Shown piece by piece: positions 2,545 to 46,901 of a stretch of 46,901 nt of DNA. Location: the NCBI GenBank assembly GCA_027491255.1, contig JAIXWM010000048.1, positions 1 through 46,901 of the forward strand, given 5' to 3'. Both the position numbers and the translations under genes were made by a program. A model generated the notes under the pieces. The model did no database searches, was not told where the DNA came from, and saw only the letters and a list, made by a program, of their open reading frames with translations. Source of the DNA: Rubrivivax sp. GTDB lineage: Bacteria > Pseudomonadota > Gammaproteobacteria > Burkholderiales > Burkholderiaceae_C. Each line of letters begins with the position of its first letter. The first letter of the stretch is position 1.

Positions 2545-2547
2545 GGA
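2543..2547 (+). promoter_or_regulatory. Ribosome binding site of the SapC gene
   Basis: GAGGA overlaps the SecA-like stop codon and sits 10 nt before ATG 2558. The gap between the two genes is only 13 bp, too short for its own promoter or terminator. Confidence 0.5.
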
Positions 2548-2557
2548 CGGCCGGCAC

Positions 2558-3304
2558 ATGCTCACCCAGCCCGTGGCCCTGGATGTTCGCGAGCACGCGC
2601 GCTGGCGCCTGCGCCCGCAGCGCGGTTTTCCCTTCGCCGCAGGCCTGCACATGGCCAGCGTGATGCAGCCGGAGTTCAGGCGGCTCTCGGTGACCTACCC
2701 CATCGTCTTCGTCGAAGACACCGAGTTCGACGCCTTCCGCCCCATGGCGCTGTTCGGCCTGAAGGCGGGAGAGAACCTCTTCGTCGAGCCCGACGGGCGC
2801 TGGGACGCTCCTTACGTGCCGGCGGTGGTGCGGGCCTACCCGTTCGCGCTCGCGCGTGCCGCCGACGGCGACCGCCTCGCCGTCTGCATCGACGCCAGCG
2901 AGCAGGCGGTTTCCCCGACCCACGGTGTGCCCCTGTTCGAAGACGACGGTCAGCCTTCGGCCGCGCTGCGGGACGCCAAGGCCTTCCTGGCGCGCCTGCG
3001 CCAGATGCAGGTGCTCACCGACGCCTTCTGTCGGGCGCTGGCCGAGCGCAACCTGTTCACCCCTTTCGCCGTGCGTGCGCGGCGCGGCAGCGAGATCGTC
3101 GAAGTCGACGGCTGTTACGTGATCGACGAAGATCGGCTGGACCGCCTGTCGGACGCCCGGCTGTCCGGACTGCGTGAGCGCGGCTGGCTCGCCGCCGTCT
3201 ACGCGCACCTGGTTTCACTTTTGCAATTGGATCGGCTCAGCCACGGACCGTCCGGCGACCTTGCCGCACGCAGCCCGATGGCCAGCCCCGGAGTACACAG
3301 ATGA
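2558..3304 (+). CDS. SapC family protein
   Basis: This 248-residue protein matches the SapC family (Pfam SapC type, not the ABC permease SapC of antimicrobial-peptide uptake). Hallmarks seen: FPFAAGLHMASVMQPEF (24-40), YPIVF (47-51), FGLKAGENLFV (66-76) followed by GRW (80-82), a YVPAVVRAYPF block (86-96), a CID motif near 110, a GVPLFEDDGQPS stretch, and a C-terminal AHLVSLLQLDRL. Length is typical of the family. No signal peptide or membrane helix is apparent, so a cytoplasmic or membrane-associated place is likely. The family's biochemical role is poorly defined; members are often linked to surface-layer or large surface proteins. Here it lies between the SecA-like gene and the giant exoprotein gene, 13 bp after the former, and its TGA overlaps the next ATG (ATGA, 3301-3304). 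A helper role in export or surface placement of the giant protein is inference. The last few dozen bases of the conserved part are visibly less GC-rich than the surroundings. Confidence 0.88.
   Translation: MLTQPVALDVREHARWRLRPQRGFPFAAGLHMASVMQPEFRRLSVTYPIVFVEDTEFDAFRPMALFGLKAGENLFVEPDGRWDAPYVPAVVRAYPFALARAADGDRLAVCIDASEQAVSPTHGVPLFEDDGQPSAALRDAKAFLARLRQMQVLTDAFCRALAERNLFTPFAVRARRGSEIVEVDGCYVIDEDRLDRLSDARLSGLRERGWLAAVYAHLVSLLQLDRLSHGPSGDLAARSPMASPGVHR
3290..3293 (+). promoter_or_regulatory. Ribosome binding site of the giant gene
   Basis: GGAG lies 7 nt before ATG 3301, inside the end of the SapC gene. Together with the ATGA stop/start overlap it fixes the start and suggests translational coupling, so production of the giant protein would follow that of SapC. 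Confidence 0.6.
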
Positions 3305-6300
3305 GCAGCAAGTCCAAGCCCTTCAAGCGCTGGTCCTTCCAGGGGCGTCGGCAGCAGGCGTGGTCGCGTCAGCGGGCCCAGGTCGAGAGGCTGGAGGACC
3401 GCGTGCTGCTGTCGGCCGAGCCGATGCTGCAACTCCTCAAGCCGGACGCGAACAAGGACCTCTCGGCCGACAACGTGACGCTGGCGGCGGTGGCGCGCCA
3501 GGTCGTGGCGCCCGACATCGAGTCCTTCCGCGCCGCCGCCACGGTGATCGACCTTGGTCGGGGGCCGTCGCAGGACGGCCGCCTGAGCTGGTCCGACGGC
3601 TCGAACGATCTGATGCAGTTCAATGCCCAGATCGCCAACCTGGTGATCGACCTGTCGGCCTCGGCCGACGAGGTCAGCCTGAGCACCGAGGCCGATGGCC
3701 GGCTGCGGGTGTCGGGCGACGGGCTGTACGACCTCGTCTTCGCGCCGCCGACCAACCTGTTCGCGGTGCGCGGCCTCGGTGGCGCCGACAAGGTCGTGAT
3801 CAACACGGCGGATCTCGGCAATGCCGCGCTGGTGGTGGAGTCCGAGTCCATCCGTGTGACCGAGTCGGCCACGCTGCGCGCCGACAACGGTGTCTACCTG
3901 GTGGCGGAGTCCGTGCTGTCGGGCTCGCCGGCGATCGGTCTGTCGGCCGAGCCGACCACCTCCATCGTCGTCGACGGCACCGTGCGCACCACGGGCGAGG
4001 TCATGCTGGCCGCCCGCACCGGCGTGCAGTGGTCGTCCCGGCCCGAGGCCGCGCTCGCCGACCTGAGCCTGTCGGCCCAGCCCAGCGCCTCCGCGGTGAT
4101 CGGCCCGAAGGCGTCGGTCACCGCGGCCGGGCTGTTCGTCACGGCCGACACCGATGTCCAGATCGACGTCTCGCGCACGGAGGCGACGCTCTCGGCGGTC
4201 AGGCTGGGCGCCAAGCAGTTCAGCGAGGCCGGCCTGCGTGGCAACGCGTCCGTGACGCTGCTCGACGCCGCCAGTCCGTCCACCGTGCAGGTGCTGATCG
4301 AGGCCACCGACACGACACAGCTGCGCAGCGTGGTCGCGGTCAAGGACGAGATCAAGGGCGACAGCGACGAGTTCGACCAGGTCACGAACACGCTGGCGCT
4401 GGACCGGCAGGCCAAGGCCTACGTCGGCGACGGTCAGGGCAAGGTCGTGATCCGTCCGGCCACCGGCGTGGCGGCGCCGACGGTCCAGGTCGCAGCCCTC
4501 GTGCGCGACCGTTCCACGGGCGGCATCCACAGCGAGTTCGTCTCCCAGCAGGCCGGCACCAGCAACATCCTGGCGATGACGGCGATCGAGTCCGCCCTCC
4601 AAGGGGCCGAACTCGACGTCGCCGGCCTGCGGATGTTCGCGCTGGACGCGAGCAGCTACACGGCCAATGCGCGCCAGGCGCAGAACTTCGGCAGCGGTGA
4701 CACCGCGGTGCGCCTGTCCGATGCGACGGTGCGCGCCACCCAGGTCGTGAGCCTGGTCGCGCAGGACCGCTCGGCCTGGAAGGCCACGGGGGGCGGCTAT
4801 TCGGGCACGGCCGAGGAGAACTGGTACGGCCAGTCCGCCATCCCCGACAGCCTGGCGGGCAACCAGGTCAGCGCCTCGGTGACGGTGGACGTGGGCAACG
4901 CGAGCCTGCGCGGCGCAGAGCTGCGCGGCTGGGCGCTGGCCACGCAGACGCTGGATGCCGAAGTCAAGCTGGGCAAGGTCGGGCCGATCGAGGACAGCAT
5001 CCTCGGCTTCTTGCTGCCCTTCGACATCGATCTGGGCGCGCTGCGCGCCTGGAACGCCTTGAACGGCTCGACACAGGTCGACTTCGATCGGGCTACCGTG
5101 CTGACCTCCCAGGGCATCAGCCTGGCGGCGCGCGACGCCGCCAAGCTCTCGGCCCTGACCCCGGCGGGCTCGGTGGCGCCCGGGGGCGGGGACCAGGAGC
5201 CCGTGCTTGCGATCAACCTGGTCGGCTGGCGCGACGCGAACCTGGGGACCCTGTCCTTGTCACGCCTGGGCGGTGGCGAGCCTGCCGACCAGCTGACCGG
5301 CCGCGAAACCACGGTCACCGTCCAGGGCTCGCGCCTCGAGGCGGGAGGCGCGCTGGCTGCCGACGCGCGCTCTTCCCTGGTGCTGCGCGCGATCGCCGGG
5401 GCACTGACCGACACCCGAGACGGCGAGGTCCGCAGCGTGCTGGTGACCGCCGCCGGCCTGGCGGCGGTCAACCGCAGCCGCACCGACACGCGCACCCGCA
5501 TCGGCTCGCAGACCGGCGTGGCCACACTGAAGGCGGGTGGCACGATCTCCGTCCTCGCGCGTGACGCCGCGACCGTGCAGGCGCAGGCCGGTACCTGGGG
5601 TGTGGGCAGCTCGGGCAGCGTGGAGGCAGGCGGCCTGCTGGTGCTCAACGATCTGCGCCGTGACGTGTCGGCCGAGATCGACGGGCTCGGCCTGGACGCG
5701 GGCGCGCTGGTGATCGATGCCCTCGACGCGGCGACGATCGAGGCCAAGGCCGCGGGCCAGGTGTCGGCCTACGGGTCGAACCCCTTCGAGGACTGGACCG
5801 AGCTCGCCGACAATGGTTCGGTCGCCACCAACTGGCTCGTCGGCGGCGTGAGCGCGGCGGCGAACGACGCCGACATCCGGCTGTCGGGCGACGCGACGCT
5901 GCGTGCCGACGCGGCGGCGACGCTGGAGGCGAGCAACAAGGTGCTGACGCGCAGCTGGGGCGGCGCGGGCACGGCCCTGGCGTTCAACGCCATCGGGCGC
6001 CAGGGCGCCGGGACCTTGAAGTCCGACGGCGTGAGTGAATTCCTGTCCGCTTCGCGCGGGACGGTGGCCACCTACGAGGTGGGTGCCCGCTTCGACAAGG
6101 GCTTCGTCGACATCGGTGGCGACCTGGCGATCAACGGCAACCTCGCCTTGAAGGCCACTGCCACGCTGGAGCAGGGCACCCGGGGCACCTTCGGCAGCTC
6201 CAGCGCAGCGCTGGCGCAGAACCTGAGCGAGGCGTCGACCGTGGTGCGCTTCGCCCCCGACACCGGAGTCGATCACTACATCGGCGGCGACCTGCGGCTG

Positions 6301-9300
6301 GGCGCGAAGGACGCAGCCACGCTCAAAGCCGATGGCAGCATGAGCGCAACAGGCGCTATCGCCACGGTCGGCCTGGCGGCCGTCCGCAACCAGGTCAACC
6401 ACGTCGTCGACGCGAAGCTGTCGGGCGCCGATCTGACCACCGGAGGTGACGTCGAGGTTCTGGCCGACTCGGCGCTGAAGGTCGATGCACGCCTGCGCGG
6501 CAAGGTCGGCTTCGGCTCGACAGCGAGCGCGCTCGGTCTGGGAGGGCTGTCGCTGAACTCCCTGATCGCGAGCAACCTGATCCTCGGCGAGGTCTCGGCG
6601 CTGGTCACCGGCAGCAAGATCGCCGCGGCCGGCGACCTGGACGTGCGTGCGGCCAACGACGCCGTCATCATTGCCGACAACACGGCGAGCACCCAAGGCA
6701 CCACGGCGGCCAGCCTCGCGCTGGCCTTCAACGGCATCGGCTGGAAGTCGCAGAGCCTGAGCTCGCTGAAGCTGACCGAGCTGCTGGGCACCGGCATGGG
6801 CACCGAGGACGCGCTGGTGGCGCGCGCCAGCGTGGTCGACACCACGCTGGCGGTCGCCGGCGACGCCGTGGTCAAGGCCACCAGCGGCGGCGAGATCGAC
6901 GCTCGGCTGGGCTCGAAGACCGATGGCGGCTACACCGGCGCGGCCGGTTTCGCGCTGGCCCTGAACCGCTTGAGCTCGGGGGCCTATGCGCGCCTGGGCG
7001 CCAGCCCGCTGCCGACGACCGGCCGCGACCGCAGCATCGACGTGGCCATTGGCGGGGACTTCGACCTGGGGGCCGAGGACACATCGACCATCACCTCGTC
7101 GGTGGACCTGGCCAGCACCGCCGGCATGGCGTCGGTGGGCGGCGTGGCGGTGCGCAACGATGCACGCGCGAGCACGATCGCGAGTGTCGACGACGCCGTG
7201 CTGAAGGTGGGCGGGGACGCGACCATCGAGGCCGACGAGTCGGCCACGGTCAAGGCGCTGGCCTCCGGCACCGCCAAGACCGACCAGGGCACGTCGTCGC
7301 TCATCGGCGCGAGCTTTGCCGCCAACGGGCTGATCGCCACCAACCTGGTGCTCGGGCAGTCGCAGGCCACGGTGACCGACAGTGACCTCACCGTCCAGGG
7401 CGACTTGACGGTGCAGGCCGCGCATTCGGCCGAGATCAGCGCCGACAACATCGCGTCGCTGCGCTCGGGCGGGCTCGCGCTGGGCGTGCTGCTGGCCTAC
7501 AACACCGTCGGCTGGAAGGCCGAGGACCTGCTGTCGCAGACGGCCGACACGATCGTCGGCGAGGTCGGCACCGCCGATCCGGTCAAGGTCGGGGCCACGG
7601 TCTCGGCCAGCACCCTGGACGTTGCGGGCGACACGACGATCGACGCCCAGATGGCCGCAACCGTCGAGGCCAGGATCAGCAACGAGGTCGTGGCCCGCGC
7701 CGGCATGGCCTCGGCGAGTCTGGTGCTCGCGTCCAACCAGGTGCAGTCCAGCGCCGACGCGCGGCTGGCCGATGCCGGCCGTCAGAGCGGCGCGCGCGGT
7801 GGCGCCAAGGTGGGCGGCGAACTCGCGATCACCTCGGCCAACGCCCCGACCGTGCAGGCCGACACCGTGATGGTGGCCGCCGCCGGCGAGACCGAGGATG
7901 ACGAGCCCGATGGTCTGACGGCCGATTTCATCAGCGCCGACGGGGTGCAGAACGTCAATTTCGACACCAAGGTGCGCCTGCTCGACGGTTACCGCAACGG
8001 CGGCGAGGGCGGCAAGGTCTACCAGTACAAGGGCGGAGAGCTGCGCTCCATCGACCTCGGCAAGGAAGACTACTCGGACCAGGGCTACTGGCTCGAGTTG
8101 AAGCCCAAGGGCAGCCTGCCGGGGGCGCTCGGGGCGCTGACCGATCTCGCGCAGAACCTGTTCCAGGTCTTCACGCTGCCCGCCCCCTTCGGCGGGGCTG
8201 GTGACTGGAAGACGCTGGAGCCGACGAGTGCCGGCACCGACGGGGCGGTGGAGCGACAGCAGTTGACGCTGGTCGCGCCGGCCTCGGGCAGCGGGCAGTT
8301 CCGGCTCGGCGTGGGCGACGCCGTGACCGATGCGATCGAGCTGCTGCCCATCGGCCGCGCCTCGTCGGAGATCCAGCGGATCACGATGATCCATCCGCAG
8401 ACGACCACTGGCAGCCGCGTGCGGCTGACGCTGGCCGGCAAGTCCGACGTCGAGTTCGAGATCGATGCCACCGCGGCCGCCACCGCTGCGCGGATGCAGG
8501 ACGCGCTCGAGACCTGGTTCGGCGACGCCAACGTGAAGGTCGCGGCCCAGCCCGGCCGCGCGGCCGGTTGGGCCTTCGACATCACCTGGGCCGGGGGCCT
8601 GCTGGGCAGCGACATCGGCGCCATCGGCGCCCGGGTGGCGCAGAACGTCGGCGCAGACCGGCTCGCCGTGCGTGCCGAGACCGTGCGCAACGGCATGGCG
8701 GCGCCCACCCGTGCCGACCAGGCCTTGCGCATCGAGACCGCACTGCGCGCGGCCCTGGCCGAGCCCGGGCTCAAGGTGACCGCGGGCACCGGGCAGGCGC
8801 TGAGTTTCGATATCGATTTCGCGCGCAAGGGCGATCGCCCGCAGATGCGCGTGCTCGAGCCGAGCGCCGGCGTGTCCGGGTCGGCCGAGACGCTGGCCGC
8901 CGGTGCCGTGTCGACCGGTGCGAGCTACACGATCCGCCTGGCCGCCGCGGCCACGGTCAGCCGCTTCGACCTGTCCTTCGACCACGGCGGTGTGACCTAC
9001 GTGGCCGAGGGCGTGTCGCGTGACGCCACCGAGAACCAGTTGCAGCAGGCGGTGCTGAAGGCCCGCAGCGCGCAGGGAGCGCGCTTCGAGGACAAGGCAG
9101 TCGCAGTCAAGGCGGCCCTGCTCGTGACCAAGGACGGAGCCTCGGCCTGGCGGCTGGACTTCGGCGGCGCGAAGGGCGTGACGGCCTCGAATCTGAAGCT
9201 GCGCCAGACCGACCCGAGCTTCCTGGGCACGCTGACCGACATCGTGTCGGACTTTGCGCCCTCGGGCGGCTTCTCCGTGGGGGGGCTCGTGACCCGCAAC

Positions 9301-12300
9301 GACGTGCGGGGCGCGGCGCAGGCGCTGCTGCTGCGCGCCGACCTGCGGGCCGGCTCGCTGACGATCGAGGCCAGCGACGAGGCGGCGATCGAAGCCTGGG
9401 TCGACTCCATCGTCGTGGCCTCCGGTGGCTTGACGGGCGGCGGCCTCGCCGCCAACGGGGTCATTGCCACCAACATGGTGCTGTCGGAGTCCCTGGCCGA
9501 CATCCAGTCCAGCACGGTCGTGACCACCGTCGGCGATGTCTCTGTCGTGGCCGACGAGGTGGCCTCGATCGAGGCCACGAACAAGAGCCTGACCCAGGCG
9601 CAGGGCTCGTCCATCGGGGTGACGCTGGCCTTCAACACCGTGGGCTGGCAGGCCCAGAACGTGCTGAAGCTCGCGGCCGACGCGATCGCCAACACCGAGC
9701 TCGGCGCCGCGCAGCCGGTGCGCTCGCGGGCCTCGGTGACCGATTCGACGGTCCGGGCCGCAGGGGCGATCGATTTCCGCGCCACCACCGACGCCTTCAT
9801 CGAGGCCGAGCTCACCAACAAGTCGGGCAACGTCGGCGGCCTGCTCGATTCCTATTTCGGCGCCGGCGCCTCCGTGGGCGTGGGCCTGGCGATCGCCAGC
9901 AACATGGTCAGCTCCGAGGCCAAGGCCTATGCCTCGGGGACCGGTGTCGTCCTCGAGGCTGGCGGGTCGCTGGACTTCGTGTCGAACAACGCCTCGGGCA
10001 TCGACTCCAGCGCCGCGCTCGAGCCGGTGGCCACCGAGACCACCGGCTCGAGCATCGTCGACCTCGCGGTCGGCAGCAAGTTCGACGTGCGTTTCACCGA
10101 CCGCTCGGGCATCAAGACGGTGAAGCGGGGCGACCTTGTGCTCGTCAGCGAGGCCGACTACAAGTCCACCGATCGCGTCGACGTGATGTCGCGTGGCGAG
10201 CGCGTGCGCATGCTGCAGTCCGTGGCTGGCGCGGTGGCCGGCACGACCTACGAGTACATCGGGGCCACACCGCTGAAGAAAGTCGATTTCACGAAGCAGA
10301 ACTTCGGCGACAAGGCGTTGTGGCGTGCCCTGTCGGGCCAGGCGGGCGCGACCTACCTGCGCCTCGGCGCAGCGTTGGAGATGAATCTCGGCGGCGAGGA
10401 TTTCTCGAACACGAGCCGCTGGATGAAGTTCGATGTCAAGGCGCTGGACGCCTTCGGCCTGGAACTCGCGGGCGAGCTGATCGATACCTTCGGCAAGGAC
10501 GAAGGTGGCGCCTCGGTAGGCTTCGGTGGTCTGGTCGTGCGCAACGACGTGCGCTCGGCGGTCGAGACCCTGCTCGACGGCGTGAGCGCGAAGGCCGCGG
10601 GCGATCTGTCGCTGCGGGCTGCCGACTCCACCGAGATCGTCGCCGTCGACGAAAGCGCGGTGTCGGCGGGCGACGTCGGCCTGAACCTGGTCGTGGCCAC
10701 CAACACCGTGCTCGGCGGCGCGAAGGCCACCGCGCGCGGGGGCAGCCTGACCACCACCGGTGCCGGTGATGTCACGGTGTCGGCGCTGAACGACTCGACG
10801 ATCGACGCGTCGGTCGACAGCTCGGTGTCGGCCGGCGTCTCGGTGGGCGTGACCCTGGCCTTCAACACCATCGGCTACCAGCCGGTCAACGTGCTGAAGA
10901 ACATCGCCGACTCGATCGCGGGCTCGAGCTACGCCGGCAAGCAGCCGCTGGCGACACTGGCCACGGTCGACGGCGCGCGCATCGCTGCGGCGGGCCACGT
11001 TTCGGTCACGGCGGCGGCGATCGGAAACATCGACGCGGTGATCGAGAACTCGGCCCTGTCCTTCAACGTCGAGCCGGGCGAGGACAAGGCGACCTCGATC
11101 ACGGTCGCTCCGGTCGTGGCGATGAACAAGGTCGCGATGCAGACCAAGGCCACGGTCACGGGCGTGCCGACGCTGGTCGCCGGGGGCGACCTGACGATCG
11201 ACGCCGACGGCCTGACGCTGATCGCCTCCGAGGTGTCGGCCAGCGCGATAGCGATCGCCGCGTCGCTCAAGGGCGCATCGACATCGTTTTCGGTCGGCGT
11301 GGCCTTCAGCCGCAACGACATCGACAACGACATCGAGTCGGGCCTGTCGGGCCTGGCCGACGGCACGTCGACCGCGCGCGTCGGCGGCAACGTCTCGGTC
11401 GGCCTGGACCGCAGCGCCGAGATCCTCGCCTCGGGCAGCGCGACCGCGGTCGCGGTCTCGGCCAGCCCGGACGGCGGCCCGGCCGTGGGCGGCGGCGGCA
11501 CGCTGGTGTTCAACCAGATCAACGGCACGGCCGACGCCTATCTGAAGCAGGTCGCACTGACGACGCTGGCCCAGGGCATCAAGGCCGGCGACGTGCGCGT
11601 CGAGGCCGTCGACGACTCGGTGATCGATGCCACGGTCAAGACGCTCGCGGTGGCCGTGTCGGTGGCTGGCGGCAAGTCCGCGCCCGCGGTGGCGCTGGGC
11701 CTGTCGGTGGCGCGCAACATCATCGGCCAGCGGCCGGTGGCCGTCAGTCACGACTACAAGGCCTCCGAGTACGACGCCGAGCGCAAGCTCACCAAGCTCG
11801 AGAAGGGCAAGCGGGTTCTCAACGATACCGGGCTGCTGAACTTCGAGGTCTATGAATTCATCGGCGACACCTTCAGCAGCGACAAGGGCATCGATCTTCG
11901 CAACCAGAATTACGGTGACGAAAGCCGCTGGAAGCTGCTGAGCTACACCCCCGACATCTCGCGCACACGCGCCCGCATCGACGACGCCTCGGTCGACGCC
12001 CGCGGCACCCTGACGGTGGACGCCCACGGGTCCGGCGAGATCACCGCCTGGGTCCAGACCCTGGCCGCCGCGGTCGGCGCGAGCGGCAAGTCGGCCCTGT
12101 CGCTCAGCGGGGCGGGCTCGTATGCGGAGAACCGCATCTACTCGAGTCTGGACGCGCGCATCGATGCGCCGGCCGCCGACCCGAAGACGGTTGCGGCCAA
12201 GTCCATCGCCGTGCGTGCCGATGCTGACGGCTCGATCGACGCGGTCTCGGGCGCAGCGTCCCTGGCGGCCTCGTTCTCTGGCCAGACCTCGCTGGCGATC

Positions 12301-15300
12301 TCGGTGGGCCTGTCGCTGGCCTTCAACAGCCTGGACACCGACGTCACCGCCAACGTCTCGGGCGCACGTCTGCAGGCGCGCGATGGCGACCTGGACATCG
12401 GCGCGTCGTCGGGCGGCATCGAGCTCGCCTCCTTCGGATGGGAGGACTTGCAGAACCGCGGCATCACCGCCGCCCGGCTCGACGCCGAGGCGAATGCCGG
12501 CAAGAAGGCCTCCTTCGAGAGCACCGAGGACCAGGAGTGGGACTTTGCCCTTCCTCGGGACCAGATCGCCCGCCTGCAGGATGGCGACCAGGTGCGGGCT
12601 GCCGACGGGCGGATCTACGAATTCAACGGCGATGACGACACGCTGGTGGCCCTGTCGACCGAGAACTTCAGCGGTTCGCGCTGGGAACTCGTGTCCACCG
12701 ACAGCCAGAAGGTCAGGGCAGGCTACACGGTCAAGGTCGACCGCATCCACACCGCCGGTGGCCTGCCCGGCGTCGTCTACCGCTTCATCGGCGTGACGGC
12801 GAACTACTCGACCGAGGAGGGCCGTCGCGCCGTCGCCCAGGGCGACGCCGTGCGCGTGGCGTCCAACCATGAGGACAGCGACCTGCTCGGCAAGGTCTTC
12901 AAGTACGTGGGCGCGACGGGATCGGTCGATCTGACCGACACCGATTTCGGTGACAGCGACCTCTGGACCGAGGTCAAGACCGAAACCGAGATCGCGCTGT
13001 GGAAGGAGAACTATGCCGACACGACGCGCTGGCAGGTCGCCACCGAATTCGCCACCCCGGGCGTCGGCACCGCACTTGTTGCGGCGCTCGAGTCCCATGG
13101 CATGAGCCTGCCGCAGGACGACCTGATCCGCTCGTCCTACCGGTACCGCAGTTCGGACGGCGTGCAGTGGGACTTCGACACCAAGAGCGGCAAGCAGGAA
13201 CTCTCCACCGGTGACCGCGTGGGGGTGTCCAGCGGCGCGAAAGCCGGACAGGTCTTCGAGTACATCGGCACCCGCAAGCGGACCATCGATCTGGGCACGA
13301 CCAACTTCACCGACACGAAGCTGTGGAAGATCGTGGCGCCCGGCGAAAAGACGCTCTTCCGTGATGACGTGGTGCGCGTCAGCGCGGAGCACGTGTCGGG
13401 GGGCGTGGCGGGCGCCGACTACCGCTACATCGGCCTGAACCGGGCCTCGGTCGCCCTGTCGACGGCCAACTACGCCGACACCACCCGGTGGGAGCGGGTG
13501 CGGCCGAACCTGGACATCTCGGTGCTCGAGGCCGGCAGCCGCTGGCTGGCCAGTGACGCGCACGGCAAGTCCTACTTGCTGCAGAAGGTGGGCGACACCT
13601 TCAAGGTCACCCGCACCAACATCAACGCCATCTCGGTCGCGGCGTCCGCCGCGGTAGGCATCGGCAAGACCGGGATCGCGATCTCGGGCGCCGGCGCGGT
13701 GGCGGTCAACACCTTGGCCGGCGGCACCGACGCCGTGCTGCAGGACAGCCAGGTCGATGCGAAGGGCGACGTGCGCCTGCACGCGACCAGCGACTCGACG
13801 ATCGCGGCCCGCGTGGCCGCCCTGTCGGTGGCCATCGCCGCGGGCCAGACCGCAGTGGGCGCGTCGATCGGCGTGTCGGTTGCGCGCAACCTGATCGGCC
13901 AGGAAGGCTTCGGCAAGGTCGGGGACGACTCGATCGCCACGGTGCGCGCGCTCGTGATCGACAGTGACATCACCGCGACCGGCGATCTGGACCTGTCGGC
14001 GACGACGCGCCAGACCATCGACGCCTTCGTCGTCGCCGGCTCGGCCGCGATCGCTGGCGGCCAGACTGGGGTGGCCGTCAGCGGCTCGGGCGTCTGGGCC
14101 GAGAACCAGATCGGCATCCGGGTGCTGTCGGGGGTCGAGACGGCCTCCACGACCGTCGGCGCCCGGCCCTCGCGCATCGTCGTGCAGGACGCGGCGGTGC
14201 GCGCGACCGACACCTCGACGATCAACGCCTTCGCCGGCGCGGCAACGATTGCGGCCGCCTTCGGCCAGACCGGGGTGGCGATCTCGATCGGCGTCTCGCT
14301 GTCGCGCAACGTCATCGACGGCGTGGTCCAGGCGGGCCTGCACGGCGCCGAGCTCGATGCGCGCGGCACGGTGGACGTGCTGGCGTCGTCGGACTCGACG
14401 ATCCGGGTGACCGCCGCCGCCGCTTCGGTGGCCCTGGCCGCGGGCCAGCTGGGCCTGGGCGTGGCCGGCGCCGGCGCGGCAGCGATGAACGTGATCCTTG
14501 GCGATGCGTTCGCCAAGGTCGACGACAGCCTGGTGCGTGCCGGCTCGGACGTGACCGTCCATGCCGAAGCCACCAACCTGATCGACGCCTGGATCGTATC
14601 GGCGGCGCTCGGGGTGGGTGTCGGCCAGACCGGCATCGGCGCATCCGTGGGCTTGTCGATCGCGCGCAACTACATCGGCTACGACCCCAAGGGCTACACC
14701 GGCGCGGTGACCTACACCTCGGGCACCGACCAGCCCAAGCGCATCCGCAAGGGCGAGGTGATCCGGCTCGGCCCGGCCTCGGGCGGGCGTGCCGGCGAGG
14801 TCTACGAGTACATCGGTACCGACGACCTGAAGGCCCAGGACAAGGACAAGGACGGCAAGGACGAGGACCTGATCCTGGCCCAGGACTACGCCGACACGAA
14901 GAAGTGGAAGCACCTGGTCAACCCGGCGGCCAACCGCATCGTCTCGTCGGTGGAGCGCTCTTCGATCCTGCGCCTGGCGCCGGTGGCGGGCGCCACCGGC
15001 GCGGCGACCACGCTCGACCTCTCGGTGACCGCCGACACCGACCAGGAGATCGACTCCACGGTGTTCTCCGGCTCGGTCGCGGCCGCCGGCGGCCAGATCG
15101 CCGCCGCGCTGTCCGGGGCGGGCGCCAGCGCGGTCAACCGCGTGGGCTCGCAGACGCAGGCCTTCATCGCCTCGACCACGGGTGCGGGCATCGACGTCGA
15201 AGGCAACGTCACCGTCGAGGCCCGTGACGAGTCGTCCATCGATTCCAGCGTGTTCGCCGTCTCGGTGGCGGCCTCGTTCGGCATGTTCGGCGGCTCGGTG

Positions 15301-18300
15301 GCCATCGGCGTGTCGACCGCGACCAACGAGATCACGAACCTGGTGGACGCGCACGTCGACCGCGCCCTCGTCGAGGCCGACGGCAACGTCACCGTGCGCG
15401 CCGTCAACAACGCGAGCATCGACTCGGAGTCGACCGCGATCGCGTTCGCGCTGTCCATCAGCACCGGCGTGGCCTTCGCCGGTGGCGGGGCCAATGCCTT
15501 CAACACGATCGACACCCGCACCACGGCGGTGGTCGACCGCAGCACCGCCGACCGGGTGGCGGGCAGCGACACGGGTTTGACCCGCATCGCCACGGGCAAG
15601 ACACTGACGATCTACGCCGACGAGCAGTCCGATTCGAACGCCCAGGTCAAGGCCGCGGCGCTCAGCTTCGGTTTGATCGCCGCGGCCGCGGCCGGCACCG
15701 TCACCGAGAACATCCTGTCGCCCGTCGTGCTGGCGCAGCTGCGTGCCACCGAGGTGGCCGGCTCGCGCGACACGACGACGGTGGAGGTGACCGCGCGCGG
15801 CAGCCAGAAGGGCATGGCCAAGTCGGACGCGCTGGCCGTCAGCACCGGCGTGTCGGTGGGTGTGTCCGAGGCGAAGACCGTCGACAGCGGCTCGATCACC
15901 GCCGACATCGGCGACGACGCCCGCGTCAAGGCCTCGGTGCTGCGCGCCCGCGCCGTCGGCCAGGACGACATGTACCAGCGTGCCACCGCCTCCAGCGGCG
16001 GCCTGTTCGTGGGCATCGCCGGCGCCAACACCTCGATGTCCATCCTCGCCACGACACTGGTGCGCATGGGCGATCGCGGGGTGCACGACGTGGGCCTGCT
16101 CGACCTGTCGTCGACCCGCACGCAGAACTTCGACGCGACGTCGAAGAACCTGGCCATCGGCCTGCTCGCGGGCAGCGGCGCGGCGATGAGCACGCTGCTC
16201 ACCGGCGCGGCCGACGTGAAGATCGGCGCGAGCCAGGTCACCGCCGGCTCGATCACGGTCAGTGCCGACAACACCGCGGACAAGAACCGCTACTCGGCCA
16301 CCGAGGAAACCCTGCGCTCGGGCTCGGCCGGCCTGGCCTCGATCACCGCGATCATGGCCGACACCGACATCGGCACGTCCGCACGGCGCTTCGGCGCCAA
16401 TGTCGAGATCGGCCGCGGGGCCGACCTCACGGTTTTGGCCGACCCGGGCAAGACCGGCCTGTTGCGCATCGGCACCTACGCCAACGCCAACGTCACCGAC
16501 AAGGTGCGCGTGGACGGCGTGGGCGGTTATTCGATCACCACCGCCCAGGCCGACCAGCAGGCCCGCATGCGCTCGACCATCAGCGTCGACGGCGCCAGCC
16601 TGCGCAACCTCAGCGGCGACCTGGAACTCGCCACGCGCAGCGATGCCGACCTGACCTCGGCCGCCAACGTGCTGTCGGTGGCCTTCCTCTCTGGCGCCTA
16701 CGCGACGGCCGACGCCGTGGTCGACGCCGACCAGACCATCCGCCTCGCCGACGCCAGCCTGCTGGGCAACGATGTGAAGCTCATGGCCGGCCAGGACCGG
16801 CTGCGCACGCCCAACATCCTGCTGACGACGGCGCAGGTCGACGCCTCGCTCGTGGGCCTGGGCGGGGCGATCCCGCTGGGCACCTCGAAGATCACCGAGA
16901 CCAACGCCATCGACATCGGCGGCACGAGCACGGTCAAGGCCATCGGCAACGTTTCCCTGCTGGCCCAGCCGGGACTGGGCAAGGGCGAGCGCGCGATGGT
17001 GGACGGCCTCGTCATCGCCCCTGCGCCCGTCGTCTTCGATCCGCGCGAGGACACGGCCGACAACAGCCTGAACACCGTCACCGTGGGCAGCCAGGCCCGC
17101 GTCGAGGCCGGCATCAACTACCGCACGCTGGTGCAGCTGCTGCCCTACGTGGTCAACGGCGAGGAGAAGCTGGCCGCCAGCCGCATCGGCAGCGACCTGA
17201 CCGCGGCCGAGAAGCAGACCCTCGGCCTGGACGCCGACCAGCAGTACGCCTACGCAGCACTCGATCTGGAGGACGTGTCGCTGTCGATCGCGGCCAACTC
17301 GATCGTCGAGCTCGTGCCCGGCAACTTCAAGGCCGGGGTGGCCGGTCAGGCCTACCGCTTCACGCCCGGCTCGGGCATCACCGAGGAAAGCCTCGTCCTC
17401 GAGACCCAGGACTACACCGACACCCGGCGCTGGACGCCGATCACGCCCACGCACACCCCGAGCTTCGCCGTCACCTCGCTCGCGGTGAAGGCGGGCGACA
17501 CGGTGCGCACGGCCGACGGACGCTGGTTCATCCGCATCGGCGCGGCGGCCACGATCAACCCGTCCACCGAGACCTACGCCGACCAGCAGGCCTGGCAGGT
17601 GATGGCCACCACGCGCAGCGACAAGGGCGCGATCTTCGCCAAGGAGCTCAGCGACGACTTCTATGTCGTCAAGCCCAAGAACCTGGCGCTGCCGACCCTG
17701 AAGTACGCCAATCTGGCCAACAACCTGTTCGAGGACCGCGCCAAGATCCTCGGCTGGATGGAGAGCCACGCCGGCAACGCCGAGGCGATCACGCGCTACC
17801 AGGCCCTGCTGAGCAAGATCGACGAGCAGCTGAAGAAGCTCGGCCTGACCGACGGCAGCGCGCCGGCGGGCACGGTGGTGGCGCGCGACAGCCTGGACCT
17901 GCTCTTCCTGGAGATGCCCACCATCCAGGCCGCGCCCGGTCTCATCCACATCCTGGCCGACGCGGCGTCGCAGACCTCGCTGGCGGGCGCAGCCACGGGC
18001 AAGCGCCTGGTCGCCCACGGCGACGCCAGCATCAAGGTGGTCAACAACACGCCCTTCGGCATGGAGATCACCGACGTCAGCATCCGCTCGACGCAGCTGA
18101 CGGAGCGTGTCGACGGCAAGCGCGTCGTGCTCGACCCGGGCGTCGTGTGGTTCAACGGGCGCAACATCGCCGGCACCCCCGGCGGCGCGGACAGCGTCAT
18201 CGACATCCTGCAGGATGCCTACCCGAAGGCGATGTACACCTCGCTGGCCGGCTTCAACCTGCCCGAGGCGCCGCAGGACATCTACGTGCGCGGCCGCATC

Positions 18301-33300: not shown

Positions 33301-36300
33301 GGCCAGGGCGTGCGCCTCCTGGTCACGTCGGACACCGCCCTGACCGTCGGCTTGAGTCTTGGTGACGTGATCGTGACGCTGCCCGACGTGGTGGTGAACG
33401 TGGTCGACACCACCGCGGCCACGGTGGTGGCCGAGCAGAACAAGCCGGGCGCGCTGCAGTTGCCCGAGACCTATGTCGTGCGCAATGGCGAGCTGGTCTT
33501 CGGCGCGGCGCCCGTGCTGGGGGGCTCGGCCGCGGCCCAGCGCGGCACCGGCACGATCTCCCTGCGCACCGGCAACCTGTCCATGCCCACCGACAGCCCG
33601 GGGGAGAACTCCGGCTTCACGCAGACGCTGGAGGGCTGGTTCCAGCCGCCGACGAGCGGTCGCTACGTCTTCGCCCTCGACGCCAACGATTCGGGGAGTT
33701 TCTCGATCGCGCTCGCCGGCGATGTCGAGACCCCGCTGACGTCCGTGGTGTCGGATTCCGAGGGCGGTGGCGCGTCCCGGTCGGCCGCGGTCACGCTGGA
33801 TGCGGGCAAGCGCTACTACGTCAAGCTGACGCACAGCGAGTACCGCAACACCGAGAAGTTCCTCGGTTTCACGACCAGCGACGACACCACCAGCTACGCC
33901 AACGTCAGCTACTCGCTCGACGGGGGAGCGGACAGGCCCTTGTCCACGTCGGACCTGATCGCCGGGCGCAGCCCGGACGCGCTCACCGTGACCCTGTCGG
34001 TGCCCACGGGCACGCTGACACTGAAGCAACTCGCCACGGGCGTCACCTCGAACCTGACCGCCGGGGCCTCGGCGGCGTCGGTCCAGCTCACGGGCTCGGC
34101 CATCGCGCTGAACGACTTCCTCACCTCGGCCGGCCACATCGGCGTCAATGCCGATCCGGCCACGCTGACCGTGTCGGTGGCAGGCTCGCAGAGCGGGCGC
34201 CTGTCGGTCTCGTCGACCTCGTTGACGGTGCAGCGCACGATCAACCTGCTGCCCGCCGCCTCGGTCTTCAGCCCGACGGCGCAGGCGATGACGTCGCTGC
34301 GCATCACCGGCAACGCCGCCAGCATGGAGGCGCCGCTGCAGGCCTTCCTCGACGCCGGCAAGCTGCGCTACACGCCGCCCGCCTGGGACGCCGGCAGCAC
34401 GGCCGAGGCCACGCTCGAGGTGTCGCTGTCGACCTCCGCGGCCAACGGCCCGGTGGTGACCACGCAGGCGCGCACGGCCTCGGTTCACGTGGTCGACACC
34501 GGCGCGCAGACCTCCGGTCCGCTGAACCTGCCCACGGTGCTGACCGTGCAGCCCGGTGTGGCCACGGCGCTGGACTTCGACCGCGTCATCTTCGGCAGCG
34601 GGCTGACGCTGGACCGCTGGACGAACGTGTCGGGCACGACAGTGGCCAGCGTTCCGGTGAACAGCACGCCGAATTCGACGACCCTGATCAGCCAACCCGT
34701 GGTGGCGCAGACGCCGAAGGGAATCCTCGCCTGGGAAGGCGAGAACAACTTCGCCCAACGCCTGCGCGGCTACATCGTTGCGCCGCAGAGCGGCGAGTAC
34801 ACCTTCTGGATCCGCTCCGACGACAGCTCGTCGCTCAGGCTGAGCACGGATGCCGACCCCGTGAAGGCGGTGCAGATCGCTGCGGTCAATGGTGCCCAGG
34901 GCAGCTTCACCGGCAACACGTCGCAGAAGTCCGCGCCCGTCACGCTCGCGGCCGGGCAGCGCTACTACCTGGAGGTGCTGCACAAGGAAGGCTCGGGCGA
35001 CGACTTCCTCGAGGTGCGCTGGCAGCGCCCGGACGGCGAGATCGAAACCCCCATCCCGACCACGGCGCTCGAGCCCTTCGGCAGTGACACCACGGCGGTG
35101 ACGGTGCGGCTGGCGGCCACGGGCGGCACGCTCACCGTGGCCCCGCCGACGGTGGCCGGCGTCACTCTCAACCTCGAGGCCGACGGCACCGCGGTCCTGG
35201 CCGGCACTCTGAGCCGGGTGCGCTCGCAACTTTTGGTGCCTGGGTTGTTGTCCTACAACGGCGCTGGCGGCCAGCTGAACCTGAGCTATGCGCAAGCCGG
35301 CAACTCCACCCCGTCCACCGCGGTCGTGCGCCTGGAGCCCGCGGCCGGCGGCTGGTACCCCACCTCGGCGCTGCCCACCGTCTCCGCGCCGACCCACCTG
35401 AACCTGCTGCCCGGCGCCAGCCGCGCACTCGACGTCCGGGTGTCGGGCGCCGGTGAGCTCACGCTGCGGGTCGAGCCGGGCAGCTCGCTCGCGACCCTGG
35501 GCACGCTCACCTTCGGCACGGGCACTGCGGGCGTGACCGTCGTCTTCGACCAGGGCCGCCCCGTCGGCCTGCGGGGCCTGGCCTCGGCGCTGAACAGCTA
35601 CCTCGCCACGGGGGCGCTGTCCTTCGCGGCCCAGCATCTGTCGCCGTCCTCGGGCACGATCGCGCTCAGCCTGACCGATGGCACCGGCGCGAGCCAGACC
35701 AGCAACCTCAACCTGACCCTGCGCTCCCCGCAGGCCACCGACGGCACGGGTACGCTCAGCGCGCCGCTGTTCTTCGACCTGTCGCTGGTGCCTAAGGACA
35801 CCTCCGGACGGGCCATCCTCGCCTTCCCGGCCGATGCGATCGGCGGCTATGGCACGCAGGTGCTGGAACTGCAGATCAGCCTGAGCTCGCTCGACGAGGG
35901 CGTGGCCGGGACGCTCCACGCGGTCCTGCCCCCCACCGGCGTGCAGCGGCTCGAAGGGGTCGACGGCAGCCGCTTCATGCGCTTCAGCGGCACCGGCTCG
36001 GCGCTCGAGGCCTGGCTGGCCGGCGGCGGGCTGCGTCAGCAGAGCCCTGGCGATGCTGTCGCCGCGGCCAACGAGATGAGCCTGGGCGTGCGCCTCATCG
36101 ACGCCTCGGGCCAGGTCACTGACCATGTGGCGGCGGTCAAGACCACGCGCGACCCGGCCGGGCCGGCGGGCCGCCTGGCCACGCTCGCGCTCACGCTGCC
36201 GCAGAGCGTGACCGTCGTCAGCGGCGCGGACTCGCCGCTGAAACTGGGCACGGATCGCATCGCCTACACGGGCACGCAGGCCCTGGAGCTGCGGCTGTCG

Positions 36301-39300: not shown

Positions 39301-42300
39301 GCCGGTGCGATCGTCAACCTGGACGGGACCATCGAGATGACGGCCGCGCAGGCCATCCTCCTGGAGGCAGGCACCCAGGTACTGACCGCCGGCACCCATG
39401 GCGGGGGCGCGATCCGCATCGCCGCGGGCCAGGGGCTGGCCGGCAGCTTGCGCGTCTCCGAGGTGCGTGCCGGCACGGGCGCGGTGGCGCTGCTGGCGCG
39501 CGGCGGCTCGATCGAGGATGCCGATGGCGCCAGCGAAGGCGCCGGCCCCGACGTGGTGGCCGACAGCCTGCTGCTGCAGGCCGGCGAGGACGTGGGCGGC
39601 GCGCTGGGCGCGGGTGGCGTGCCCGCGACCGACGCCGCACGGGCGGCCAATGCGCTCGAGACACAGGTCGGTGTCCTGGCGGCCGAGGTGGGCGCGAATG
39701 TGCGCCTGGCCGAGTCCGATGGCGTCACGATCGGTGCGGTGAGCGTGAGCGTGCCGCGCGCGGGCGGGGCGGTTGCTTCGCTCACCTCGAGCCTGAACGG
39801 CCTGCGCAGCACCGGCACCGGTGACCTGTGGCTGGTGGCGGGTTCCGAGACCACGAGTGCCACCGTGCGCAGCCTCGCGCAGGCGCCGGTGGTCACCGGC
39901 GGCGTCGGCACGGTGACGATCACCGCGCGCGGCGCGGCGTCGAAGATCGTCCTGGGCGACGACGTGCGCTCGGGTTCGGGGGCGGTCACGCTCCAGGCGG
40001 CGACGACGGTCGACAAGATCGATGCTGCCCGGTTCGTCACCGAGGGTGACGTGACCGTGATCGCGGCCGATGGCCTGCGCATCGTCAACGCACAGGGCCA
40101 ACTCGACGCGGCCGGCACCATCGGCCGCGGCACCTCGCCGGGCCTGCTGCGCGTCGTGGGCAACCAGACCGTGGCCGCCGGCCAGACGCTGGCGCTCACG
40201 CTCAGCGAATCCGGGCCGCAGGGCCACGACAGGCTCGAAGTCACCGGCACGCTGACGCTGGCGGCGGGCTCCGTGCTCGACGTGCGTCTGCGCCAGCCCG
40301 TCATGGGCACCGAGATCGTCGACACCGAGACCGTGGACGTCGTCGTCGAGCCCGGCTACCAGCCGGTGCTGGCGCAGCGCTATGCCCTGGTCAGCGCGGG
40401 CACGATCACCGGCCGCTTCACCGAGGGCCGCGGCCTGTTCGGCTTCGGCGACGGCTCGCGCCTGCTGCAGGTCGACGACGCGACCGCGGGCGTGCTCGCG
40501 GTCCAGACCGTCACCCGGCCGCTGGCCGAGCTGATCGACATCCAGGCGCACTCCACGGCCGACGCCGACCGCCTGGGCATGTTCTTCAACGCCGACTATT
40601 TCGGCACCACGCGCAGCTACTCGGTGGGCATGACCGCCACCACGGTCGACTTCCTGACCGTCGACGGCCGCTTCAACCTGCGCAATGCCGATGCGATGGT
40701 GCGCCTGTCCGACGGCACCACCGTCCAGGCGCGCCGCTGGCTCATCGGCGGGCAGGACCTGTTCGCCTTTGCCGGCCTGAACGGGCCCTACCGGCTGGAT
40801 GCCGACCACGATGGCGACCTGAGCGACGAGACCCCCGACGCCAGCGCTGCCGGCTTCGAACTCACCGGCGTCGACCTGGGCCTGGCGATGGTCTTCGAGA
40901 AGCTGCCGCAGGGCAGCACCGCGCGTGCGCGCGGCTGGGTCAGTGTCAATGCGACGTCGAAGACGGCCGAGGCCTTCGGCCTGCCGCTGATCGAGGCCGA
41001 AGCGCGGCGCCTGACGGTGCAGGTCAACGCCGGCACCGACGGCGACACCGTGCTCGACTACAAGGGCAGCCCGATTTATATCGAAACCGGCGCATCGGGG
41101 TCGAAGGCGATCGACTTCGACGGTGGTCTGGGCACGCTCGTGCGTGCATCGGCCGACATCGACGTGCAGGTCGCCGATTTCGTCTACGTGCGCGGTTCCA
41201 TGGGGCTGGAGAAGTCCACGCGCGACGTCGTGCTGGCCGACGGCACGGCTGTGCGCGCCGACATGCTGGCCATCGGCGGCAAGGACCTGAACGCCTACGC
41301 CGGGCTGAACGGCCCGTACTGGGTCGACGCCGACTTCGACGGCGTGCCCGAATCGGTCAACCCGCGCGCCTTCGGCCTGGTGATGGAGGATGTCGACTTC
41401 GGTCTGGCCCTGTTCTCGCCCAAGCAGGGACAGGCCCAGGTCGCCGACCTGAAGTGGGCCGCGGCCACCGCGACGGCCGGGCGGGTCGAGTTCGTCGGCC
41501 TGCAGGACGTCACGCTCAAGGTCAGCAACATCGGCCTGGACATCAACCTGGTGACGGGGGTGGCGGCGGGCGTCGATTCCGACGCGAAGGTCATCGACTT
41601 CGCGGGCGGCGAGGGCCAGCGCAAGATCCAGGTCATCAACGGACCCAACAGCACGATCGCGCTCGACCACGATGGCCGGCTCGGCCAGTACGTGCGCGCC
41701 ACCGGCGATGTCGAGCTGCGCGTGGGCGACTTCTTCGAGGTCGAGGGTTCGCTCGGCTTCGAGCGCCGCTCGCAGACCGTGACGCTGGCCGACGGCAGCA
41801 GCGTCGACACCGAGCTGATCAGCATCGGCGGCACCGACCTCAGCGCCTTCGTCGGCGTCGGCCCCTACCGCAAGGACCTGAACCTGGACGGCAAGGTCGA
41901 CGACGACGAGATCAACCCCGACGCCCGCGGCCTGGGCGTCAGCGGCGTGGAGTTCGGCCTGGCGCTGTTCCAGGCGCAGGAGGACGAGACCGCCTACGCC
42001 GGCAAGCGCTGGACGGCGCTGACCGGCAGCATCGAGCGTGTGGACACCCTGATCGGGCTGCCCGACGACATCACGCTGCGGGTGCACTCGCTGGGTCTGG
42101 ACATCAACCTGGCGCACGGCTTCAGCGACGCCGAGGTCGACGACAAGGTCATCGACTTCGGCACCCGTATGGTCGCCGGCAAGGAGGTCAGCGGCGCGGT
42201 GACGGTGGCCACCGGCACCGGCAAGAGCCTGCTGCTGACGCTGGACGGCGAGCGCGGCGAACTCATCCGCGCCGCTGGCGGCATGGAGATCGACGTCGCC

Positions 42301-45300
42301 GGCTTCTTCCACGCCAGCGGCACGCTGGCGGTCGAGAAGTCCGCACCCGACTTCAAGCTTGCCGACGGCAAGACGGTCGACACCGACATGCTGTCCATCG
42401 GCGGCACCGACCTGAACCTGTTCGTCGGCGTCAACGGGCCGTACCGGCTCGACACCAATGGCGACGGGGTCATCGACCTGCGCGACGAGGCCAACCCCGA
42501 CGCCATCGGCCTGACCGCCTACGGCGGCGAGTTCGGCCTCGTGCTGGCCTGGGACAAGGCGAGCGACCGCGAATGGGTGGCGCTGGAGGCCAGCGCGAGC
42601 GAGGTGGCGCTCGTGGGCGTGCCCGGGGTCACGGCGGCAGCGCGCTACATCGACATCGGCATCAACCTCGTGAACCAGCCGCTGGCGGCCAGTGACGAGC
42701 GGCTGCAGGTGATCGACTTCAAGGCCAAGCCCTTCGAGGTCTCCACCGGCTACCGGACCACGCGCACGCTGGACCTGGACGGCCAGCGCGGCGAGTCCAT
42801 CCGTGCCTCGGGCGAGTTCGAGGTCGGCGTGGGCGGCTTCGTGCACGCCCGCGGCATGCTGGGCTTCGAGAAGTACAGCACGACCGTCAAGCTGGCCGAC
42901 GGGACGCCGGTGGTCGTCGACGCGCTCAGCTTCGGCGGCGACGGTCTGAACGTGTTCGCCGGCGTGGACGGGCCCTACGTCGTCGACAGCAATGCCGATG
43001 GCCGGATCACGGCCGCCGACACGCCCAACGCCGCGGCGCGCGGCTTCTCGCTCGAGGACGCCGATTTCGCGCTCGCGATCATGACGCCGCGTGGCGCGGC
43101 GCCGGCCGGGCTCGCCGGCGTGACCTGGCTCGGCCTGGAGGCCGGCGCGCAGGCGATCGAGTTCATCGGCGGGCCCGAGATCGACTTGTCGGTCAAGCGC
43201 TTGTCGGTCGAAGCCAACCAGGTCTTCGGCCTGCCCGACACGCTCGACCCGGTGCGCAAGGTCGTCGATTTCAAGGCCACGCCGCAGGACGTCGTCGTCG
43301 GCACCAACACGGTCACCGGCGCCAGCCTGACCCACCGCCTGGACGTCCAGGGCGACCGCGGCGCCTTGCTGCGCGCCGTGGGCGACGTCGAGATCCGCGT
43401 CGGCGACTTCTTCTATGTCGGCGGCTCGCTGGGCTTCGAGAAGTCCACGCGCGAACTGGCGCTGTCCGACGGCAGCACGGTCAGCCATGACGTGCTGACG
43501 GTGGGCGGCACCGACCTCCAGGCCTTTGCCGGTCTGAACGGCGGGCCGCTGGTGGACAGCGACCGCGACGGCGACATCGACAGCAACGACACCCCGGGCG
43601 ATGACGCGGTGGGCTTCTCGCTCGCCGATCTGGAGTTCGCGCTCGTGCTCGCCAACGAGCGCGAAGTCGTCAAGCCGGTGCTCGAGCAGGCCCTGGCCTG
43701 GCGTGACGTGGCCGTCTCCGCCACCGTGCAGGTGGCGGTTGCCGCGCAGCAGCCGGGCGCGACGTCCGCAGGCGTCTGGCGCTCCACCGACGGCGGCGTC
43801 ACCTGGACGGCGACGACGGCGCCGACCGGCCTGAACTACGAAGCCGTGAGCGTGTCGCCGGACGGCAAGACGATCGCCGCCACGGTCGAAGGCGGTCCGG
43901 TGGTGGTTTCGACCGACGGCGGCAAGACCTGGTCCCTGTCGGGCGCGCGCAGCGACGCCTACACCGACGTGGCCGTGCTGGCCGACGGGCAGGTGGTGGC
44001 GGTGGACATGGCCACGCGGCGCGAGCTCGACACGCTCGTCGTCTCGGGCACCTACGCGATCGGCTCGACCATCCTGATCTCGGGCCTGTCCGACACGGTG
44101 CTGGTCTACCGGGTGCAATCGGTCGACCTGTCGGCCGATGGCAAGGGGTCTTCTGCGCGCGCGAGCGCGGAGCAGATCCTGACGAACATTGCGGCAAAGT
44201 TGCGTGCCCGGATCAATGCGGCGCCGGGCAGCAACGCCGTGGCCGGCGGCAGCGGCGCCATCGTCACGCTCCAGGCGCGGACCGCCGTGGAACAGGGCGG
44301 CGGCTGGTACGGGCTCGTGACCCAGGTCATCGGCTCGGGCACGCTGTCGAGCGTGGCCGACTCGAGCGGCAGGAACGCACTGGGATCGCTGATCGTCGAA
44401 GGCCGGTTCTATCGCGGGACCGACATCCGCCTGCGCGGCCTGGCGGACCAGGACATCCGCTACTTGGTGCAGTCCGGAGATTTCTACGCCTCGGGCAGCT
44501 ACTCCTTTTTCGGCAACAGTGACAGCAAGAATGTGCCGTCGAACGTGGCCAAGAAGCTCGCCGAGCTGATCAACAAGGCCCCGGGTTCGCGTGCCATCGC
44601 CACCGCCTCGGGTGCCACGATCACGCTGCAGGCCCGCACGCCGGTGGCCCAGGGGGGAGGCTGGTCGACGATCCTCGCGGCCACCGACTCCGTTTCCAAT
44701 CGCGTGCGTGTCGCAGACGCCGGCTCGCCGGTCGGGCGCCAGACCGACGCGCTCGCCATCACCGGCACCTGGCAGGTCGGCGACAGAGTCACGCTGTCGG
44801 GCATCTCGACGACGCCGATCCCCTACACGGTCACCGCGAACGACCTGACCGTCAACGGCGACGGCACCGGCGGCACTGCCAGCGCCGAGCAGGTGCGCAG
44901 CAACGTCGTGCGCCGGCTCTTCGACCTGCTGGACCAGCCGCGCCAGCAGGAAGCCAAGATCGCCGCCAAGCAGGTGGAATACCACCGGGCCGTGCTCGCC
45001 GAGGTCCGCAAGACCGGCAAGTTCCGCTACATGGAAACCTACGACGACGGCAGCTATGACCTGACGGCCGGTTACTACGTAGGGAACAACACCTTCGGCA
45101 AGGCGCTGACCGAGGCGCAGATCACCGCCTGGGAGGGCTCGATCCTCTCGACGGAGGCGAAGGCCAGGTACAAGAAGGTCGCCGACGAGCTCGCCAGCCT
45201 CAAGGCCACGAAGCTGCCGGCGGACGGCCTCACCGTCGTGGCCAAGGCGTCCGGCTCGGTGCTGACGCTCTACGGGCGTGAGGCCGACGTGCGGTTCACG

Positions 45301-46901: not shown

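Follow-up and report, generated by a model that had tools for sequence, protein, structure and literature searches.

How far does a bacterial reading frame that shows no stop codon extend, does it encode a protein, and by what route could a product of such size leave the cell? These questions are raised by a stretch of 46,901 nucleotides from Rubrivivax sp. (contig JAIXWM010000048.1 of assembly GCA_027491255.1), referred to below as the window, whose source is a bacterium close to uncultured betaproteobacteria.

Extent and coding capacity of the giant frame

Translation of the window, together with the listing of its open reading frames, confirmed that the frame starting with ATG 3301 runs without interruption to position 46899 of the forward strand (14,533 codons, containing neither a stop nor an N). 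A preliminary description had presented the gene as still open. This holds throughout the window, but it is a contig-end effect: the window is the entire contig C196 (exactly 46,901 b), and the frame lacks a stop because this contig ends. C146, another contig of the same genome, begins with the 119 bases that close the window, and none of the 12 other listed matches to the window end is an exact contig-end match. On C146 the same frame comprises 4,884 open codons (39 of them shared with the window) and terminates at a stop codon at positions 14,653-14,655. The giant gene (3301..46901, forward strand) therefore extends into C146, where the last base of its stop codon is 14,655. When both contigs are joined over the 119 bases, the predicted protein has 19,378 amino acids (aa), a mass of 1,965 kDa and a pI of 4.57, and the frame in the window is predicted to represent the first three quarters of the gene.

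An open frame arising by chance was ruled out, since approximately 140 stops would be expected from the base composition of the frame at its three codon positions (ln P of no stop approx. -141), and the GC content of the third position exceeds that of the other two in 144/144 windows of 200 codons. Three long open frames were also observed on the opposite strand (5260-18432, 25357-36540 and 38215-46674; 4,390, 3,727 and 2,819 aa), which likely mirror the high third-position GC. With high-GC DNA yielding antisense frames as long as 4,390 aa, length is no proof of coding, and selection is the better test.

A suitable comparison was provided by the genome G150 (entitled uncultured beta proteobacterium isolate Loclat_bin-11913), whose DNA in locus L045 is 88-90% identical to that of the genome analysed here. 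A single contig of this relative (C271) carries the counterpart of window positions 37,385-46,901 beside that of C146 positions 1-14,698, with an identical 119-base overlap. The junction is bridged there by a frame of 8,867 codons, which has the same stop and an identical C-terminal sequence, SKEVRGA. In a further orthologous piece (L132) the same frame is open over 6,294 codons. The dN/dS values, calculated for blocks that overlap slightly and leave out window positions from approx. 27,000 to 37,200, were 0.24 over 1,679 codons (L045), 0.31 for L132, 0.37 over 3,221 codons of the window tail and 0.21 over 4,874 codons on C146. Of the 6,259 codons aligned in L132, 5,700 entered the pooled value; the other 559, those with the lowest similarity, form two blocks with omega of 0.91 and 1.08 and identity of about 0.4. 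Along L132, blocks of 300 codons gave dN/dS of 0.12-0.43 as far as base ~22,400, then 0.46-0.60, and finally 0.91-1.08 in the part with only about 0.4 identity. The giant frame is under purifying selection in most of the compared blocks.

That several genes were wrongly joined, by the assembly or by gene fusion, might be suspected in a draft of 202 contigs, in which the C196-C146 join consists of 119 bases. Such an artefact is extremely improbable and can be dismissed, because the frame is open in a separate assembly, across the junction as well as in L132, and selection in most blocks speaks against it. The values of 0.21-0.37 in four blocks and the junction within one contig of a relative identify the frame as coding sequence. 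The earlier assertion that it is real and not fused is thus borne out by codon statistics, dN/dS and an open, collinear orthologue. The protein may fairly be counted with the largest bacterial ones, as stated earlier, but it sets no size record: an ORF of 39,678 aa was reported from Omnitrophota (PMC10066038), and a frame on contig C56 of the same genome has at least 19,918 codons.

Anatomy of the giant protein

The N-terminus of the protein is basic and is followed by a LEPR-XLL (LEPR-8K) domain, VERLEDRVLLSAEP (3379..3438, forward strand, as are all features of the protein given below), the proposed export leader. Its match to NF012209 (19.8 and 26.6 bits, curated cut-off 17) near the N-terminus places the protein in the LEPR-XLL family. 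The first 80 residues contain no hydrophobic stretch. Further on lies a region of LktA_tand_53-type repeats (5032..15711; NF012206, 2.7e-86), in which an iterated profile recognized 22 segments spanning residues 578-4137. LktA_tand_53 is the name of an NCBIfam model, and the likeness concerns the repeat only, implying no toxin. An iterated profile also picked out 14 modules of the YxYIG...W type, each 21-46 residues long and dispersed over 7993..19563. A PA14/GLEYA domain (Pfam PA14 1.2e-15, GLEYA 1.2e-9) occupies 34741..35058, and a second, weaker PA14 match, below cut-off (1.5e-4), lies at 31252-31518.

The end of the window (40615..46899) consists of tandem repeats of ~178 residues, interrupted by a BNR-like stretch at 43738-44004. 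There are nine matches to the repeat in the window and three on C146, the last of the former and the first of the latter being one repeat split by the contig end. This region matches NF045728 below its cut-off (39.1 bits), and the BNR-like stretches of the protein also score below cut-off. In an AlphaFold model of one tandem pair (mean pLDDT 90.8), the ~178-residue repeats are predicted to form a long-stranded antiparallel beta sheet. RTX repeats (HemolysinCabind, 1.6e-8) are present at residues 2502-2528 of the 4,884 encoded on C146, i.e. approx. 2,360 residues before the C-terminus, and the C-terminal tail is rich in Pro and Ala. By eye, C146 residues ~500-2470, which follow the ~178-residue repeats, show an alternation of hydrophobic and polar residues in the style of beta-strands, and residues ~3000-3150 resemble a discoidin (F5/8 type C) domain, with no family match at E <=0.01. 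The 19,378 aa contain no cysteine, as compared with 83 cysteines in the 7,963 aa that 18 of the genome's ordinary genes encode.

Eight copies of the LEPR-8K domain, i.e. eight LEPR N-termini, were found in this genome. The longest of the other giant frames, on C56 (22405-82158, reverse strand; loci L019-L021 and L036), has at least 19,918 codons, is cut at its 5' end by the contig end and encodes no cysteine. The frames on C137 (at least 13,347 codons, 3' end cut), C45 (12,528 codons) and C181 (8,939 codons) are further examples; the first two, counted with untrimmed starts, contain 3 and 6 cysteines, respectively. Taken together, the giant frames occupy at least ~250 kb, near 4% of the genome.

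Two observations concern the regions adjoining such genes. Behind the giant on C146 (14.6-31.9 kb; L016, L017) lies a gene for a periplasmic adaptor (TIGR01730), and past it, on the opposite strand, genes that look flagellar by eye (fliJ, fliI, fliH, fliG, fliF, flhA). A second type of giant C-terminus, with a motif like LLSDMSYGL, often accompanied by LLRSTGQ and unlike the Pro-rich tail described above, was seen beside the cassette discussed below at L084, L089-L090, L092-L094, L102 and C52 32075-35584.

A gene cassette upstream of the giant gene

Three genes precede the giant one on the same strand. The nearest encodes SapC (2558..3304; Pfam SapC, 6.1e-67), and its stop codon overlaps the giant's ATG (ATGA). 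Before it lies a gene for a SecA-like ATPase without the C-terminal scaffold/wing (637..2544, start codon at some point upstream of 637), which matches SecA_DEAD (2.1e-82), P-loop_SecA and SecA_PP_bind, and shows no SecA_SW. The window opens with the C-terminal ~153 residues of an RRE-M50-HlyD fusion (2..469; own profile, C196:5-463, model residues 569-721).

The remainder of the fusion gene is probably located on contig C91, which also carries OEP and GAF-HlyD. Window positions 1-573 and C91 22375-22947 are 95.5% identical, with 26 mismatches and no gaps, and the same gene order is found on one contig in L045. From this overlap and synteny we infer the link between the two contigs. The mismatches may stem from differences between strains in the assembled data, or the two ends may be near-copies.

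An M50-HlyD gene with a SecA-like gene is also present on C56, C52, C151, C94 and C181. The parts of the C56 and C52 cassettes, with genes called by a simple GC3 method, were named by Pfam; the order on C56 deviates (M50-HlyD, SapC, OEP, GAF-HlyD, SecA-like). No ABC gene was found in these two cassettes (nine proteins scanned by Pfam, the SapC and M50-HlyD of C56 by our own profiles). At the listed loci, L049 excepted, GAF-HlyD, M50-HlyD and SecA-like follow one another too closely for an ABC gene to fit between them.

Distribution of the cassette

Related M50-HlyD loci numbered 215; the 80 best were taken and gave 79 loci, several of them from one assembly. Organisms were named by record title, and LEPR starts were recognized by a text pattern. 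The titles include Comamonadaceae/Limnohabitans, Azohydromonas, Magnetococcales, Altererythrobacter, Azospirillum, Pelagicoccus, Desulfobulbus, Planctomycetes, Verrucomicrobia and others. Within this best 80 of 215, the M50-HlyD protein reaches at least 440 bits in 64 of the 79 loci; GAF-HlyD lies just upstream of it in 61 of these 64, and the SecA-like gene is next downstream on the same strand in 53 of the 58 loci whose downstream side is long enough (accession prefixes indicate 47 assemblies). A LEPR-type start was seen in 30 of the 64, that of L091 being doubtful and many contigs ending first, and 13 more show only a frame of >700 codons that is cut by the upstream edge. The exceptions for the SecA-like gene are L049, where it is found 3.9 kb further on in an arrangement resembling that of C56, L101, where it lies on the other strand, and L104, L106 and L109, in which our profile did not find it.

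In the 15 distant M50-HlyD loci of the same best 80 of 215 (324-370 bits; by title 12 Planctomycetota, 2 Verrucomicrobiales and 1 Myxococcales), the profile found no SecA-like gene (0/15), a result that argues against this protein as a universal motor. In two of them (L115 and L120) a LEPR-type giant lies directly behind M50-HlyD. Since some Planctomycetes (L082, L098) do have the SecA-like gene, its presence or absence tracks the M50-HlyD subfamily more than the phylum. At the distant loci the housekeeping SecA may serve instead.

Among 150 genomes of the order, including the one analysed here, LEPR-8K was detected in 21, M50-HlyD in 31 and both in 20 (Fisher p 4.5e-16, kinship ignored), which leaves 11 of the 31 with M50-HlyD and without detected LEPR-8K. 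Distances between SecA-like proteins match those between M50-HlyD proteins in 51 loci (r 0.95; maximum of 1,000 permutations 0.19), a match that would also follow from simple co-inheritance. The cassette and a LEPR giant occur together in the named strains Limnohabitans planktonicus II-D5 (L067) and Azohydromonas australica DSM 1124 (L116), which makes the export proposal below testable.

Features of the RRE-M50-HlyD and SecA-like proteins

Matches to PqqD (RRE) were obtained for 10 of 37 M50-HlyD members at E <=1. When ten members were scanned singly, five showed PqqD at residues 31-99, two of them over the cut-off; in most members it is below the Pfam cut-off or absent, and it was not found in the C91 protein. 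All 37 members match the daptide protease model NF041824 at E <=0.1, the C91 protein with 193.7 bits, below the 300-bit equivalog cut-off. According to PMC10036551, the daptide protease represented by this model is an RRE-dependent leader peptidase. Residues H214, E215, H218 and D316 are invariant in 37/37 members and presumably bind zinc.

The profile of the SecA-like family aligns to residues 30-609 only of Bacillus subtilis SecA. The ATPase motifs are kept (Walker A in 53/54), and in 49/49 measured copies the protein ends 81-100 residues past the GRQG motif. The missing part of SecA is the one which presumably holds the two-helix finger and which we take to reach into SecY. PF07516 (SecA_SW) has one match in the genome, on C112, the only SecA with a scaffold/wing; the cassette SecA-like proteins are without it. 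One SecY was detected in the genome, with no second SecY found, and SecA2 models match the SecA-like protein below cut-off.

Proposed route of export and its alternatives

We consider it likely (probability approx. 0.6) that the cysteine-free LEPR-XLL protein of 19,378 residues is pushed through the envelope by the SecA-like/RRE-M50-HlyD/GAF-HlyD/TolC cassette, the functional links between cassette and giant being suggested by gene neighbourhood and homology. In the proposed scheme the basic N-terminus with its LEPR-XLLSA motif, devoid of a hydrophobic Sec signal core, would act as a leader. This leader would be bound by the N-terminal PqqD-like (RRE) domain of M50-HlyD, in the way that RREs bind RiPP leaders, and the M50 site-2 protease may cut it. 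The SecA-like ATPase would supply the push, and the HlyD adaptors with a TolC-type protein would form the conduit. Once outside, the giant might constitute an extended surface fibre or an adhesin-like secreted polymer, built of beta-repeats and containing PA14, BNR-like and RTX segments. The scheme would account for the conserved N-terminus, the lack of a Sec signal, the lack of an ABC gene in the scanned cassettes and the lack of cysteine; the distant loci without the SecA-like gene are unexplained by it, and another ATPase must act there if the scheme holds. More tentatively, at somewhat less than even odds, the cassette may represent an undescribed class of secretion system, in which a RiPP-type domain reads the LEPR-XLL leader, a site-2 protease frees it, and a SecA devoid of the finger propels megadalton proteins via HlyD/TolC with no ABC transporter.

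It is rather unlikely that the protein is instead secreted as RTX adhesins are, by a type I system, C-terminus first through an ABC exporter encoded elsewhere in the genome, with the cassette as an accessory. HlyD and OEP genes beside the giant, the RTX nonapeptide repeats and the lack of cysteine would suit this route, adhesins of type I systems being generally cysteine-free. Yet the conserved element is the N-terminus, the RTX repeats lie approx. 2,360 residues before the C-terminus, no ABC gene was found in the C56 and C52 cassettes, and except at L049 the core genes of the listed loci leave no room for one.

Export through the housekeeping Sec translocon, with LEPR serving as an atypical Sec signal and the SecA-like protein as an alternative SecYEG motor comparable to SecA2 of Gram-positives, is an improbable route. 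The SecA fold with its ATPase motifs, the sub-threshold SecA2 matches and the single SecY, which would then be shared, agree with it. The absence of a hydrophobic core, the uniform ending of the SecA-like proteins before the presumed SecY-reaching part and the need for a further step across the outer membrane count against it. Two-partner secretion of the FHA type and autotransport were ruled out, as the first 5,000 residues match no Pfam family at E <=0.01, including the N-terminal TPS domain (Haemagg_act), and HemolysinCabind is the sole match at E <=0.01 in the 4,884 residues of C146, where no C-terminal beta-barrel was found.

Comparison with known systems

Our search of a library of openly accessible published papers found no description of the cassette. 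Should the cassette indeed serve as the exporter, RiPP leader recognition would be joined with SecA-driven export, and the LEPR-XLL domain would gain a function. A very long frame thereby becomes a testable system for the export of a ~2 MDa chain by a bacterium.

Huge proteins have been surveyed (PMC11573180). Each giant ORF of Omnitrophota is likewise one frame extending over tens of kilobases, in some cases with domains of the adhesion type; these ORFs are larger, the 39,678-aa one has 42 predicted transmembrane helices, and the passages of PMC10066038 consulted mention no such cassette. Type I secretion of RTX adhesins shares with our locus HlyD adaptors, a TolC-type protein, RTX repeats and the lack of cysteine, whereas the cassettes scanned here are without an ABC exporter and the candidate signal is N-terminal, not C-terminal. 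The accessory Sec system (SecA2/SecY2, exporting serine-rich repeat adhesins; mentioned in PMC12863079) also places a second SecA beside a very large repetitive surface protein, but here there is no second SecY, the SecA-like protein is truncated, and the partners are of the Gram-negative HlyD/TolC type. With the daptide peptidase MpaP (NF041824) and PqqD/RRE proteins, M50-HlyD has in common an RRE-like N-terminal domain and an intramembrane M50 protease with HExxH and Asp; it differs in its additional HlyD adaptor, its position beside giants rather than a small peptide, and its score below the equivalog cut-off.

The closest resemblance is to the LEPR-XLL proteins (NF012209) themselves, which combine an N-terminal domain above the cut-off with a very long repetitive protein. 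They include a Vibrio giant of ~8,000 aa (PMC10868602), and a Limnohabitans transcript with LEPR-XLL is mentioned in the literature. The protein described here is about twice as long as the Vibrio one, has several counterparts in its genome and is linked to a proposed export cassette. The giant thus belongs to an established kind of protein, here longer and in several copies per genome, and its exporter may be of a kind as yet undescribed.
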